A program made the translations under genes and the position numbers. Positions 4,323 through 16,564 of a stretch of DNA of 24,241 nt are shown piece by piece. Each line of letters starts with the position of its first letter. Positions within the stretch are counted from its first letter, which is position 1. The notes beneath the pieces are model-generated. The model worked only from the letters and a program-made list of their open reading frames with translations, was not told where the DNA came from and searched no databases. The stretch spans positions 1 through 24,241 of IMG/VR virus record IMGVR_UViG_3300044800_000048, one strand, 5' to 3'. The DNA is from a virus.

Positions 4323-5759
4323 TCAGGCGGATGCAACCTCGCCTGGATTCTTCCGGTTGTATTTTTTCGTAACGTCCTTAGCCCAATCGGTATCATTCAA
4401 GGGCTTGTCCTTGTCCTGCATCTGGCGCCGATCCTCTTCAAACTTCACTTTATCGGGTTTCTTCAAATGCAGAAGGTTTCGGTATCCATCCTTCGTCTTT
4501 CCCTCTTTCCTTGGTATCATGTCATTGAATGCCCTGATAAGAGCGGCATCCTTGCTCTTTGCCACGAATGGCTTCAGGGCTTTCATGAACACCGTAAGCT
4601 TTGCGCTATCGGCTCCTGGGATGGGGTTCTTTGGGATTTCCTCTCCGCTTAGCACGGGAGCAGAGAGCAACTCTGAGTCCCGGACCCTATCATCGTCGTC
4701 ATCTCCGGTCTCGGGTATTTCTTCTGACCCTTCACCACCACCCTTAACCAGACTTACCAACTCTTGAAGCAGGGCCAGCATCTTCTGCTGGGGATCATCG
4801 GTGACTCTCCGTGAAAGGTAATCATCGAATGCTTTTCTCCGGTCATCGTCATCCTTGCATCGGTCCATGTCGTCCTTGAGTTTCGCCCAGCGATCATCTC
4901 TTACCCGCCGGTCGTCATCTCTTACCCTGTCGTCATCCCGGACCCTATCATCGTCTCTGGTCCGGTCGTCCTTCAATTTCTTGTCGTCCCTTACTCGGTC
5001 ATCGTCATCCCTGACTCGATCGTCGTCATCTCTTACCCGATCATCGTCGTCCTTCAATTTCTTGTCATCGTCTTTGTTTCGCATTTCAGCCCTCCTTTTT
5101 TCCTTTGCCACAGTTTCGTGAGCTTCAGCTATTTTCTCTGGTTCGGCATCTTTGGTGTATTCCCTCAACCCGAGACCGAGAATATGTTGAAATAAATTTT
5201 TAAACATTTTAGCCTCCTTTTTCTCATCCTTTATCCTCACCCTATCGCCTGCCCGTCCGTTTTTGACGACGGCGATATGGTTGATACGGATATCATGTTG
5301 TGCATAATTACCATCTCTCATGGGGACGTACTCACAGTCATAACCACAAGAGATCTCCCTGAATTCCCCACTTTCAACCTTGCTGATTAAATTGGCATCC
5401 TTAACGATCAGGTCACAAACCAGAGACTCGTTTCCATCCTCCAGGACCCCGCCCCGTCTAAAGTTCTGAGCATGTCCCCTGTGATAGGAGTTCTCGTTAG
5501 ATGGGTTCACAAACTCCGGTGGATGTCCGTCGGTGATAGTCTTTCCCTCGGCAGTGGCAAGCGTACTTGGAGAAAAGACTTCTTTTGGATCCCTATAAAC
5601 TTTTACAGTGTCTTGGGAATCCATTCCTATCTCATTTCCCTTGTACTCTTGCCATCCCGTGCGAGCAACCGGAACATTTCGACAAATCAGATAACCCTCT
5701 GGTGATTTGGCTATGTTGTCTGAGATCCGGCTGCCAAAATAGACGATGTTTCTACCCAT
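4323..5759 (-). CDS. DUF2213 prohead protease fused to acidic repeat scaffold
   Basis: The product is 478 residues. Residues 1 to about 180 are a DUF2213 domain ('PEGYLICRNVPVARTG', 'ITDGHPPEFV', 'REISCGYDCEY', 'HIRINHIAVVKNGRAGDRVR' in outline), a family associated with prohead maturation protease. The second half differs: a helical stretch, then a long Asp/Arg repeat (unit DDDDRVR) and a C-terminal helical region around 'AKLTVFMKALKPFVAKSKDAALIRAFNDM', as expected for a scaffold. Two in-frame ATGs at residues 185 and 226 each follow a perfect Shine-Dalgarno site, so shorter scaffold-only products are likely. The arrangement resembles lambda C/Nu3, where one frame encodes protease plus scaffold. 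It lies just upstream of the cement and capsid genes. Confidence 0.8.
   Translation of the reverse strand: MGRNIVYFGSRISDNIAKSPEGYLICRNVPVARTGWQEYKGNEIGMDSQDTVKVYRDPKEVFSPSTLATAEGKTITDGHPPEFVNPSNENSYHRGHAQNFRRGGVLEDGNESLVCDLIVKDANLISKVESGEFREISCGYDCEYVPMRDGNYAQHDIRINHIAVVKNGRAGDRVRIKDEKKEAKMFKNLFQHILGLGLREYTKDAEPEKIAEAHETVAKEKRRAEMRNKDDDKKLKDDDDRVRDDDDRVRDDDDRVRDDKKLKDDRTRDDDRVRDDDRVRDDDRRVRDDRWAKLKDDMDRCKDDDDRRKAFDDYLSRRVTDDPQQKMLALLQELVSLVKGGGEGSEEIPETGDDDDDRVRDSELLSAPVLSGEEIPKNPIPGADSAKLTVFMKALKPFVAKSKDAALIRAFNDMIPRKEGKTKDGYRNLLHLKKPDKVKFEEDRRQMQDKDKPLNDTDWAKDVTKKYNRKNPGEVASA
4830..5075 (-). repeat. In-frame tandem repeat encoding Asp/Arg units (DDDDRVR)
   Basis: Degenerate 18-21 bp units encode DDDDRVR, DDDRVRD and related blocks, interrupted twice by KKLKDD. 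The units stay in frame, so the array is coding rather than a CRISPR. It encodes a highly charged, probably disordered or helical spacer in the scaffold part of the DUF2213 protein. Confidence 0.8.
5084..5101 (-). promoter_or_regulatory. Second internal ribosome-binding site and start (Met226)
   Basis: A second AAAAAAGGAGG lies 6-7 nt before an in-frame ATG. It would give a 253-residue product starting at MRNKDDD, just before the acidic repeats. Two consecutive optimal sites in one frame are hard to explain by chance. Confidence 0.5.
5207..5220 (-). promoter_or_regulatory. Internal ribosome-binding site and start (Met185 of DUF2213 protein)
   Basis: Inside the DUF2213 frame, AAAAAGGAGG lies 5 nt before an in-frame ATG. 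The site is stronger than that of the full-length start (GGGGGA). Initiation here would give a 294-residue product that lacks the protease domain and begins MFKNLFQHILG. I infer that it makes a free scaffold protein. Confidence 0.6.
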
Positions 5760-13996: not shown

Positions 13997-14200
13997 TTAA
14001 TCTTTTGCATTTGGATAAAGCAATTCCAGACGATCAACCTTTCCGTTTGTGGCCTTCTCAATCCGGAGGGCCATTTCAGGGGATGGTTTATATTTTCCAA
14101 TCATCATCACCCTGAATGAGCCGTAGTTAAATTGGTTGATTTCACAAAAATGTTTCATCGTAATTTTATTTTTTATGAGAAAATTGCGTAAAGTTTTCAT
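13997..14200 (-). CDS. Cro/YdaS-like helix-turn-helix regulator
   Basis: The 67-residue protein resembles small Cro/YdaS-type regulators: 'MKHFCEINQFNYGSFRVMMIGKYKPSPEMALRIEKATNGKVDRLELLYP', with a degenerate recognition region followed by the diagnostic 'spemAlrIEkATnGkVdrleLlyP'. The ATG lies only about 12 nt from the -10 box of its promoter and lacks a Shine-Dalgarno site, so the mRNA is probably nearly leaderless, as for some phage repressor genes. It is read against the neighbouring plus-strand genes. It is likely one half of the lysis/lysogeny switch. Confidence 0.7.
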   Translation of the reverse strand: MKTLRNFLIKNKITMKHFCEINQFNYGSFRVMMIGKYKPSPEMALRIEKATNGKVDRLELLYPNAKD

Positions 14201-14504
14201 AGTTGAGGCTAACTTAACACACCCTCAACCCAAAAGTCAAGAAATAAATCATTTGGGAGGAGTCGTAGAGTTTTATATCAAAAAAAATAAATCAAATGGT
14301 TTGAGTAATGCCGAATTAGCACGCAGATTAGGCGTGGATAGATCGGCGGTGACCCAATGGATAAAAGGTAAAAATTCATTTACTATCGGGAATTTATTAA
14401 AAATGCTTCAAGTTTTTCAAATAGATTTTTTTGATTTTGCCCGCACCGCAGATATTCTTACCTCTTGGGGAAAATTCAGCAAAAACTATCCTCCGAAAAG
14501 ATAA
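14178..14504 (+). CDS. XRE-family helix-turn-helix repressor candidate
   Basis: The helix-turn-helix is clear: 'LSNAELARRLGVDRSAVTQWIKGKNSFTIGNLLKMLQVF', with helix 2 NAELARRLG and recognition helix RSAVTQWIKG. The start is uncertain. ATG 14178 gives 108 residues but reads through the operator and overlaps the divergent gene; TTG 14253 gives 83 residues, leaves the operator non-coding and fits domain length, but neither has a strong ribosome site. It lies between the two matched operators in the position of a lambda-type repressor, so it is the best candidate for the protein that binds them. Confidence 0.75.
   Translation, partial: RKLRKVFIVEANLTHPQPKSQEINHLGGVVEFYIKKNKSNGLSNAELARRLGVDRSAVTQWIKGKNSFTIGNLLKMLQVFQIDFFDFARTADILTSWGKFSKNYPPKR
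14202..14240 (-). promoter_or_regulatory. Leftward promoter with 17-bp operator over its -10
   Basis: Leftward, TTGACT (14240-14235) is followed after 17 bp by TTAAGT (14217-14212). The operator, read leftward GTTAAG-N5-CTCAAC (14218-14202), covers the -10 and the start region. The same operator occurs over the rightward early promoter at 14549-14565. A second CTCAAC half-site (14224-14229) forms a 7-bp inverted repeat with 14202-14208. Confidence 0.6.
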
Positions 14505-14585: not shown

Positions 14586-14936
14586 ATGAAAGCCAGAGGC
14601 GGTAAAGAACTCAATAAATATCTTAATGGGGGAAAATTAAGTCTAAAACAGATGATTCTTGCAAAATGTTTTGAATGTTGCGGTAACTATGCGGATGGAA
14701 AGGATGATTGTGAACTATCAGACTGCCCTTTATATCCAATTATGCCATACGGGGTAGTATGGAAGGGCAGGAAGAAGGGGAAAATTCCTGTAGGCTTCGT
14801 AAAACATAGGCTACAGGAGCAAAAAGGCATATCTATAAAGGAATCCCAGAACCATTTGTCACAGTCGCCAGGAACCTGTAACCTCTGCTTCGGCAGTCCT
14901 ACGGGAATTGGGCATGGTGTTGGCGGCAATGACTGA
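14586..14936 (+). CDS. Cys-rich zinc-binding-type phage protein
   Basis: The ATG at 14586 follows GGGGTGA and gives 116 residues. The core has 'LAKCFECCGNYADGKDDCELSDCPLYPIMPYG', with five to six Cys in a CxxCC-x8-C-x4-C spacing that suggests a zinc site, and the C-terminal part has another CxxC ('GTCNLCFG'). Proteins with the 'YaDGk.DC....CpLyp.mPY' pattern recur in phage early regions with unknown function. It is the first gene of the early operon, directly behind the regulated promoter, so it is expressed early on induction or infection. Role unknown, perhaps host takeover. Confidence 0.7.
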   Translation: MKARGGKELNKYLNGGKLSLKQMILAKCFECCGNYADGKDDCELSDCPLYPIMPYGVVWKGRKKGKIPVGFVKHRLQEQKGISIKESQNHLSQSPGTCNLCFGSPTGIGHGVGGND

Positions 14937-15032
14937 CAATTAACCTGGCAGATCGGGAAACCGACGGAACAGGGGAGAGAGGGAATCCAAAACCACATAG
15001 GAGAACTATATCCAGAAAGGAGAAAATAAGAA

Positions 15033-15275
15033 GTGGTTATTAAAAGATTTATTGAACTTGAAAATGGTTATTTCATGGATAAGCCAAAACAAGGGAATCC
15101 AAAGTGGACTGCTATTTTATTATGCTGGATTGTGAGGGTGATTAAACGAAAGAATCAAAAAGAATATCAACGACGCAAAAGATGGACTCATTGTATTGAG
15201 GCTCCAACAAAACGAATGATGGAATCAGGAGTTGCTAAATTTTCCAGAAGAAAAGATGTGAAATTACTGAATTAA
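15033..15275 (+). CDS. Hypothetical basic early protein
   Basis: The frame begins at GTG about 10 nt after AGGAGA and encodes 80 residues. An ATG at 15072 is an alternative start. The protein is strongly basic (KRFI…, IKRKNQKEYQRRKRW, SRRKDVKL), with one hydrophobic patch 'KWTAILLCWIVRV', and could bind nucleic acid or membrane. I recognise no family. The preceding 97 bp hold no gene I can support. Confidence 0.45.
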   Translation: MVIKRFIELENGYFMDKPKQGNPKWTAILLCWIVRVIKRKNQKEYQRRKRWTHCIEAPTKRMMESGVAKFSRRKDVKLLN

Positions 15276-15292: not shown

Positions 15293-15556
15293 ATGGAGAC
15301 AGCAAAAGAAATATTACAGACGGCGTTTAAGAAGGAGGATGCGATCGAACAGGCCATTGATCGATGTTTCAGGCTGATCAGAGACGACATTAAGAAGTCC
15401 ATGGATGAAAGGGAATTCTTCCGCGATGCGGACCTGAGAAGGGAACGAACCATCAATGCTCGTCAGAAGCAGGAGCTTGATCTTGCGGTGAGGGAATTGC
15501 TAAAAGCTCGGAAGATGATCGCAGGGATGAAGGAACTGTTGCAGATAAAAGCGTAA
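15293..15556 (+). CDS. Hypothetical helical early protein
   Basis: The 87-residue protein starts behind AAAGGAGG and is almost wholly helical and charged: 'AKEILQTAFKKEDAIEQAIDRCFRLIRDDIKKSMDEREFF', then 'RRERTINARQKQELDLAVRELLKARKMIAGMKELLQ'. It is probably a coiled coil. Family and function are unknown. The structured RNA at 15563-15621 begins a few bases after its stop. Confidence 0.5.
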   Translation: METAKEILQTAFKKEDAIEQAIDRCFRLIRDDIKKSMDEREFFRDADLRRERTINARQKQELDLAVRELLKARKMIAGMKELLQIKA

Positions 15557-15562
15557 ATAAGC

Positions 15563-15621
15563 GGGTGGGGCGAAAGCACTGGTCTACTCATCTCCAGTTT
15601 GGAATCCTCTCCAACCCACCC
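15563..15621 (+). ncRNA. Candidate four-way-junction RNA in a 5' leader position
   Basis: Four helices abut with no unpaired joining base. P1 is GGGTGGG (15563-15569) with CCCACCC (15615-15621), 7 bp. P2 is GC-GAAA-GC (15570-15577). P3 is ACTGG (15578-15582) with CCAGT (15594-15598). P4 is TTGG (15599-15602) with CCAA (15611-15614). AAAGGAGG, the ribosome site of the next gene, starts 3 nt after P1 (15624-15631). Such a contiguous fold in a 59-nt gap is unusual. It may be a translational switch. P2 has only 2 bp and is the weakest element. No known family was recognised. Confidence 0.55.
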
Positions 15622-15639
15622 CGAAAGGAGGATTAGAAA

Positions 15640-15780
15640 TTGAAATGTAATCATCCAAAATGGAAAACTATGGTTAAAGGTAAAAGTTGGAAGTGTAGAA
15701 CTTGTGGATTTGTTAAGACCAGACATGGAGAAGTAACAACACTTGAAGCCATGAGAGATTTGATGCCTAAAGGGAGGTGA
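15640..15780 (+). CDS. 46-residue zinc-ribbon microprotein
   Basis: A TTG start 8 nt after AAAGGAGG encodes MKCNHPKWKTMVKGKSWKC…, with Cys3, His5, then CRTCG (Cys19, Cys22) and His29. This resembles a small zinc ribbon. It is too short for most gene callers. It lies directly behind the four-way-junction RNA and ends 6 bp before the next gene. Function unknown; a role as a DNA- or RNA-polymerase-binding phage factor is possible. Confidence 0.6.
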   Translation: MKCNHPKWKTMVKGKSWKCRTCGFVKTRHGEVTTLEAMRDLMPKGR

Positions 15781-15786
15781 ATCCAG

Positions 15787-15981
15787 ATGACAAAAACGAT
15801 TCCTTATAAAGACGTGAATAAAAAACTGAAAGGGGGAATGAAACAGATCAAAGACGCTATTGATCTATTGAAAACTCACATAGTCATAGGCGACGTAGTT
15901 TTCCCAACAGCACCTAAGCCAGTTAGGACTCGGAAGGCTAAGGGTCCGGTGCCGCCAACAACGGAAGGGGAGGAGAAGTGA
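15787..15981 (+). CDS. Hypothetical small basic protein
   Basis: The 64-residue protein begins MTKTIPYKDVNKKLKGGMKQIKDAIDLLKTHI and continues with a Pro/Lys/Arg-rich tail (PKPVRTRKAKGPVPP). It has a helical N-terminus and a probably disordered basic C-terminus, compatible with nucleic-acid binding. The ribosome site overlaps the end of the previous gene (GGGAGGTGA). No family is recognised. Confidence 0.45.
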   Translation: MTKTIPYKDVNKKLKGGMKQIKDAIDLLKTHIVIGDVVFPTAPKPVRTRKAKGPVPPTTEGEEK

Positions 15982-16144: not shown

Positions 16145-16564
16145 ATGCCAGAAGAAATTATCAAAGAATATCTGAAGTATCCATTGACTGAAGTGGAGAT
16201 GAGAAAAGAGGCCGAGAAGATGGCCTACTGCTTATCCAAAAGGGCTGAATTGGAGGGAGACCTTAAATCCATTAAGAAGCAGGTCGAGTCAGATATTGCC
16301 AAGGTTGAGGCAGAACTGACTTCCGCGGTGACCAAATATCAGTCAGGCTTCGAGATGCGAAATATCGAGTGCCGGATCGATAAAGACTTTCAAACCAACA
16401 CCATTCGAACGGTTCGCCTGGATACGTTTGAATTGGTTCGAGAGCGGGCGATGACTTCAGAAGAAAGACAGTTAAACCTTTTTGAACCCCCAGAAGAAAA
16501 GGATCTTCCCGATGCTGATGCAAAGGGCTACATGAAGGAAAGGAAAGAGACGATTAATGAGTGA
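16145..16564 (+). CDS. Conserved phage coiled-coil protein
   Basis: The 139-residue protein begins with 'YPLTEVEMRKEAEKMAYCLSKRAELEGDLKSIKKQVESDIAKVEAEL', a long coiled coil, then a beta segment 'GFEMRNIECRIDKDFQTNTIRTVRLDTFELVRERAMTSEERQLNLF'. That pattern recurs in phage early regions, usually as a stand-alone protein of unknown function near recombination genes. A role with the recombination module downstream is possible but unproven. It overlaps the next gene by 8 nt. Confidence 0.6.
   Translation: MPEEIIKEYLKYPLTEVEMRKEAEKMAYCLSKRAELEGDLKSIKKQVESDIAKVEAELTSAVTKYQSGFEMRNIECRIDKDFQTNTIRTVRLDTFELVRERAMTSEERQLNLFEPPEEKDLPDADAKGYMKERKETINE

Follow-up and report, generated by a model that had tools for sequence, protein, structure and literature searches.

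The window, meaning the whole stretch of DNA analysed here, is a virus record of 24,241 bases. About 1 kb after HTH genes at positions 13997-14504, a short gap between an 87-aa ORF and a small ORF resembling a zinc ribbon holds a sequence predicted to fold as an RNA four-way junction. The coordinates of this element, its helices and the features around it are collected in Table 1.

Table 1. Coordinates of the element, its neighbours and the features shared with other phages (window positions unless a locus is named)
Feature	Position	Strand	Basis or remark
Upstream 87-aa ORF	15293..15556	+	terminates 6 nt upstream of the element
Four-way-junction RNA element, both arms of the closing stem included	15563..15621	+	minimum-energy fold, homologues, covariance-model matches
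P1 5' arm, GGGUGGG	15563..15569	+	pairs with 15615-15621 (7 bp)
P2 mini-hairpin, GC-GAAA-GC	15570..15577	+	arms 15570-15571/15576-15577; same in all copies
P3 hairpin, 5 bp, 11-nt loop UCUACUCAUCU	15578..15598	+	ACUGG/CCAGU at 15578-15582/15594-15598; stem invariant across copies
P4 hairpin, 5 bp, 6-nt loop AUCCUC	15599..15614	+	arms 15599-15603/15610-15614; 2 pairs altered on both sides in G001
P1 3' arm, CCCACCC	15615..15621	+	minimum-energy fold; three-way sequence conservation ends here
Ribosome-binding site AAAGGAGG of the zinc-ribbon ORF	15624..15631	+	sequence; adjoins the element in G004 too
46-aa ORF, CxH...CxxC zinc-ribbon-like, UUG start	15640..15780	+	ORF list; weak sub-threshold Pfam matches
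Segment present in the window, absent from the homologous site of G001/G002	15557..15769	+	blastn alignments stop at 15557 and restart at 15770
Second structured RNA	14839-15003		window
Second structured RNA	L064 3779-3580	-	
Second structured RNA	L125 2586-2808		
C-terminal tail DLPDADAKGYMKERK	16494-16547		window
C-terminal tail DLPDADAKGYMKERK	L064 2741-2691	-	
C-terminal tail DLPDADAKGYMKERK	L125 3001-3046		

Fold of the element

The minimum-energy fold of the element consists of helices of 7, 2, 5 and 5 bp with no joining nucleotides at the junction, which bears out the earlier note's description of four helices set end to end without unpaired joins. The 7-bp closing stem, the GC-GAAA-GC mini-hairpin and the 5-bp hairpin are each present as described there; P4, listed as 4 bp, has 5 bp (UUGGA/UCCAA), and the closing stem does lie just 5' of a ribosome-binding site, P1 ending 2-3 nt before it.

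The fold energy by itself is unremarkable. When the downstream bases are included (15563-15631), the z-score is -1.23 and 24 of 200 shuffles fold equally well, and for the element alone it is -2.76, with 3 of 200 shuffles as good. The same stretch as a DNA single strand also folds favourably (z -3.28, 0 of 200). Perfect 7/2/5/5 junctions whose P2 loop has 4 nt number one in the window; Markov-shuffled strands hold about 0.05 each, so that about 0.1 would be expected in the window, a chance figure computed after the motif had been seen. In longer context other folds compete with that of the G001 copy described below, and the G004 fold, once the ribosome-binding site is included, is beaten by another conformer. 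The window sequence alone is not decisive for a real fold; conservation is.

Copies in related phages and their gene contexts

Copies of the element were found in the related IMG/VR records G001 (60 kb), G002 (145 kb) and G004 (62 kb). Searching the element against related records gave homologues at E 3e-29 and 3e-14; the copy in G001 and G002 is 84% identical (E 3e-14 to 8e-14). The G004 copy, 94% identical over 76 of 81 bases, turned up, amid many chance matches, when the opening 15 bases of the element served as a scan pattern. The 87-aa gene that precedes the element has close relatives in G001 and G002, near-duplicates of each other whose matched loci are alike. A covariance model gave one strong match per record, at 94.3, 91.7, 81.0 and 81.0 bits in the window (G000), G004, G001 and G002, with the next-best score in the G000-G004 records at 8.6 bits; G003 had no strong match, and a single unrelated locus reached 18.1 bits (E 0.01) in another covariance-model search. 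One copy was detected per record, and as the records may be fragments a single copy per genome is not firm.

Outside these records, a DNA search of annotated phages and plasmids returned just short matches (E 2 to 8), which we take as chance, and scanning IMG/VR and GTDB genomes with degenerate patterns returned, beyond the copies already described, nothing but sequences that lack this fold. The collections searched may omit near-identical records. Among named phages the closest portal relatives are 41% identical. Rfam 15 gave no match in the window at the gathering threshold, and at permissive thresholds the surroundings of the element showed sub-threshold noise alone in the window and G004 and no match at all in G001. 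By these searches the element is not in Rfam.

Conservation follows the fold. The block shared by the window and G004 runs from AGCGGG through the ribosome-binding site, and the two are 94% identical within the element but 84% identical in the neighbouring coding region that they share; in the three-way comparison the conserved block ends at the closing stem on both sides and the flanks differ. P4 in G001 reads UAGGG/CCCUA, so that two pairs are altered on both sides (U-A to A-U and A-U to G-C) and none is broken, against 0, 0, 0, 0, 0 and 1 double-sided paired changes in slid controls. By a hand estimate, four changes among ten stem positions would fall as two complementary pairs in about 1% of cases by chance. 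Column shuffles reached the same covariation count in 61 of 500 trials, which makes this evidence thin, because the distinct sequences behind it number just three, and two of these hardly differ. P1 carries one G-C to G-U change in G004. In G001 it needs one bulged U, after which seven pairs remain when read by hand; an ungapped alignment scores three P1 cells of this copy as unpaired. The stems of P2 and P3 are invariant in all copies and so silent on covariation. Of the covariation that the earlier note proposed to look for in P1, P3 and P4, what was found is therefore two compensated pairs in P4 and one G-U in P1, with P3 unvarying.

The P2-P3 side of the junction is invariant: every copy has the same GGCGAAAGCACUGG and UCUACUCAUC, save for one C inserted between them in G004, and within the P3 loop UCUACUCAUC is the same throughout apart from insertions of 1 nt in G004 and 4 nt in G001. 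Because the copies share no reading frame, being separated by 1- and 4-nt indels, we rejected a conserved peptide. Taken with the compensated changes in P4, these comparisons make it likely that the conserved four-way junction is a real structure.

The genes around the copies differ. In G004 the element sits between a 62-aa ORF and an 80-aa VIKRFIELE gene, whose homologue in the window (15033-15275) has no such leader. In G001 and G002 the copy falls past the integrase, in the rightward operon; a 258-aa ORF comes before it and an 84-aa ORF after it, the latter preceding a Holliday-junction-resolvase-like gene. In all three contexts the element begins about 0-6 nt past a stop codon, on the strand of its flanking genes. 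At the window's own site, G001 and G002 keep the flanking genes and lack both the element and the zinc-ribbon gene: the stop codon of the 87-aa homologue runs straight into the ribosome-binding site of the next gene, and the segment holding element and zinc-ribbon ORF is an exact presence/absence difference after that stop codon (compared with L002/L003). TAAA stands at both ends of this segment. In L064, the segment that differs at its own site consists of the 62-aa ORF followed by the element.

The earlier note had read the element as a leader controlling the zinc-ribbon microprotein, and in this respect it is not borne out. A different gene follows the element in G004 and in G001/G002, which argues against a dedicated zinc-ribbon leader or a single-pathway metabolite switch, and neither the phage collection nor G001-G004 yielded a homologue of the zinc-ribbon protein. 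Conserved flanking genes without the stems, which that note regarded as counting against its proposal, are indeed seen at the homologous site of G001 and G002, but the element is conserved elsewhere in both records. The structural hunch was thus right on the RNA and wrong on its target, and the mobility was revealed only by comparing gene contexts. In our best reading, the element is a portable, single-copy, gene-independent intercistronic RNA of a small group of related temperate-type phages.

Possible action and alternatives

We favour, at a probability of roughly 0.45, an intercistronic RNA that is independent of particular genes, relocates, and acts at the level of the transcript or polymerase. 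The conserved four-way junction would be carried within the operon transcript, would move between intercistronic gaps, and would work on the transcript or on the transcribing polymerase. It may control read-through, by analogy with the put RNA of HK022, or it may serve processing or insulation at the gene boundary; in either case the surface recognised would probably be the invariant P2-P3 side, GGCGAAAGCACUGG...UCUACUCAUC. Action at this level appears the most likely because the element is tied neither to one downstream gene nor to a start codon, and its distance from the ribosome-binding site is not fixed. Transcription or RNA-processing machinery also fits better as the reader, because of the position-independence, the single copy and the invariant loop. 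If so, the element would add another gene-independent RNA of phages, of which put, with a different fold, is the best-studied example. We regard it as doubtful, though conceivable, that it represents an RNA-only phage control element of less than 65 nt, one per genome and relocatable, that acts either on the polymerase (put-like, with another fold) or as a trans-acting small RNA. A terminator was considered and rejected: TTTTTT follows the copy in G001 only, not those in the window or G004, and a terminator scan calls none there.

A translational leader would toggle between two conformers. The four-way junction would leave the ribosome-binding site accessible; in the other conformer P1 would pair with the P3 loop and AAUCCUC (15603-15609) with GAGGAUU (15628-15634), so as to hide the start region of any gene that follows. 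In context, the G004 leader has this site-hiding alternative as its minimum-energy fold, the P4 loop of the window is complementary to the ribosome-binding site over 6-7 nt, and the site lies 3-4 nt downstream in two of the three copies (window and G004). However, null elements whose stems and loops were randomised at constant composition equalled the site hiding at frequencies of 0.45 (window), 0.25 (G004) and 0.86 (G001), and shuffled loops matched the complementarity between the 5' arm of P1 and the P3 loop in 13-42% of cases; in G001, moreover, about 40 nt separate the element from the site, to which its P4 loop can form one pair fewer, and the downstream gene is different in each context. 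A translational switch through a site-hiding fold is unsupported, and we judge such a leader unlikely. The riboswitch-like role suggested earlier is likewise not supported: the site-hiding fold does no better than the randomised nulls, and the three contexts have three downstream genes, with no consistent association with a gene or pathway and no linked ligand. Only slightly less probable than this leader, and so unlikely too, is an element that acts as DNA, a mobile or recombination/replication site folding as a single strand, for which the intergenic position would be a tolerated insertion. It has moved between unrelated gene contexts, its DNA fold is the favourable one noted above, and GCGAAAGC is a very stable DNA mini-hairpin. 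Against this stand the shared strand with the flanking genes (a chance of 0.25 for all three alike), the G-U retained in P1 of G004, which suits RNA better than DNA, the lack of recognised terminal repeats or target duplications, and the single copy in each record, which would be unusual for a mobile element.

A small RNA cut from the operon transcript and acting in trans elsewhere would explain the single copy and the varying places, and the invariant loop agrees with it; no promoter-like site was found near the element, itself a weak test, and GATGAGTAG, which would pair exactly with the loop core, does not occur on the + strand of the window. We consider this improbable. The modest z-scores of the fold and the origin of the copies in few phages would also be expected if the element had no function, being common only through recent recombination and folded by chance. 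Yet the 84% identical copy has both of its P4 differences compensated, at the rough hand-estimated odds given above, and conservation stops with the fold while the flanks differ; this explanation is very improbable.

Among known RNAs, SAM-I and NiCo are four-way-junction riboswitches, and resemble the element in having four helices and a compact junction near a ribosome-binding site; the element differs in a junction without unpaired nucleotides, in the lack of a linked metabolic gene and in matching no Rfam family. Its 7-bp closing stem, 5-bp third and fourth arms and small second arm recall tRNA, but a T-loop motif or CCA end is not visible. ARAGORN found no tRNA in the window, and Rfam, searched at E up to 10, none in 15400-15800, so that the tRNA-like character once proposed is not supported. 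RNase III or other processing hairpins occur between phage genes and are likewise intercistronic and gene-independent; the element is no simple long hairpin and has sequence-conserved loops. The put RNA of phage HK022 (putL/putR) is a cis-acting RNA of about 60-75 nt in the early left and right operons, with two stem-loops, and causes terminator read-through without phage proteins (PMC9378689). The likeness lies in the size, the independence from the following gene and the early operons. In place of the two long stem-loops in a V of put, however, the element has a predicted four-way junction with a tiny P2, and it occurs once per record at varying depth in the operon rather than in left and right operons. 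It is not a member of put, which serves as an analogy only. The manA and wcaG motifs, candidate structured RNAs from cyanophages and marine metagenomes, have been seen in many marine sequences, and wcaG is tied to metabolic and light-induced gene classes (PMC2864571). They too are phage-carried candidates, whereas the element is known from three sequences, with no gene class and no Rfam match.

A second structured RNA and other features of the window

A second, larger structured RNA of about 165-225 nt lies near the start of the early operon and is common to three phages. It forms stable single folds in all three (z -2.1, -3.8 and -2.1), in which GGA.UCCC/GGGA.UCC forms the closing stem and a second, long arm accompanies a GNRA hairpin domain. 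By eye, the GNRA hairpin varies yet stays paired (UCGG-GAAA-CCGA versus UGC-GAAA-GCA), as does the stem at its base (CUGU/ACAG versus UAUC/GAUA). It had no Rfam match in the window at E up to 5, and L064 gave only noise. This RNA may be more deserving of a study of its own than the four-way junction.

Otherwise different-looking proteins end in the C-terminal tail DLPDADAKGYMKERK: one of 139 aa in the window, one of 132 aa in L064 and one in L125, the last a relative of the 64-aa protein of the window (15787-15981). Its DNA gives a 46-nt match between the window and L125 that is 98% identical. Could DLPDADAKGYMKERK be a portable peptide tag? In the early region of G001 (L149), two ORFs at 1753-2421 and 4882-5271 look by eye like HNH-type homing endonucleases; the first had no Pfam match. 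Finally, repeats at 4678-5069 of the window code for aspartate-arginine runs of the DDDRVRD type, and fall inside a 478-aa protein encoded on the minus strand (4323-5759).
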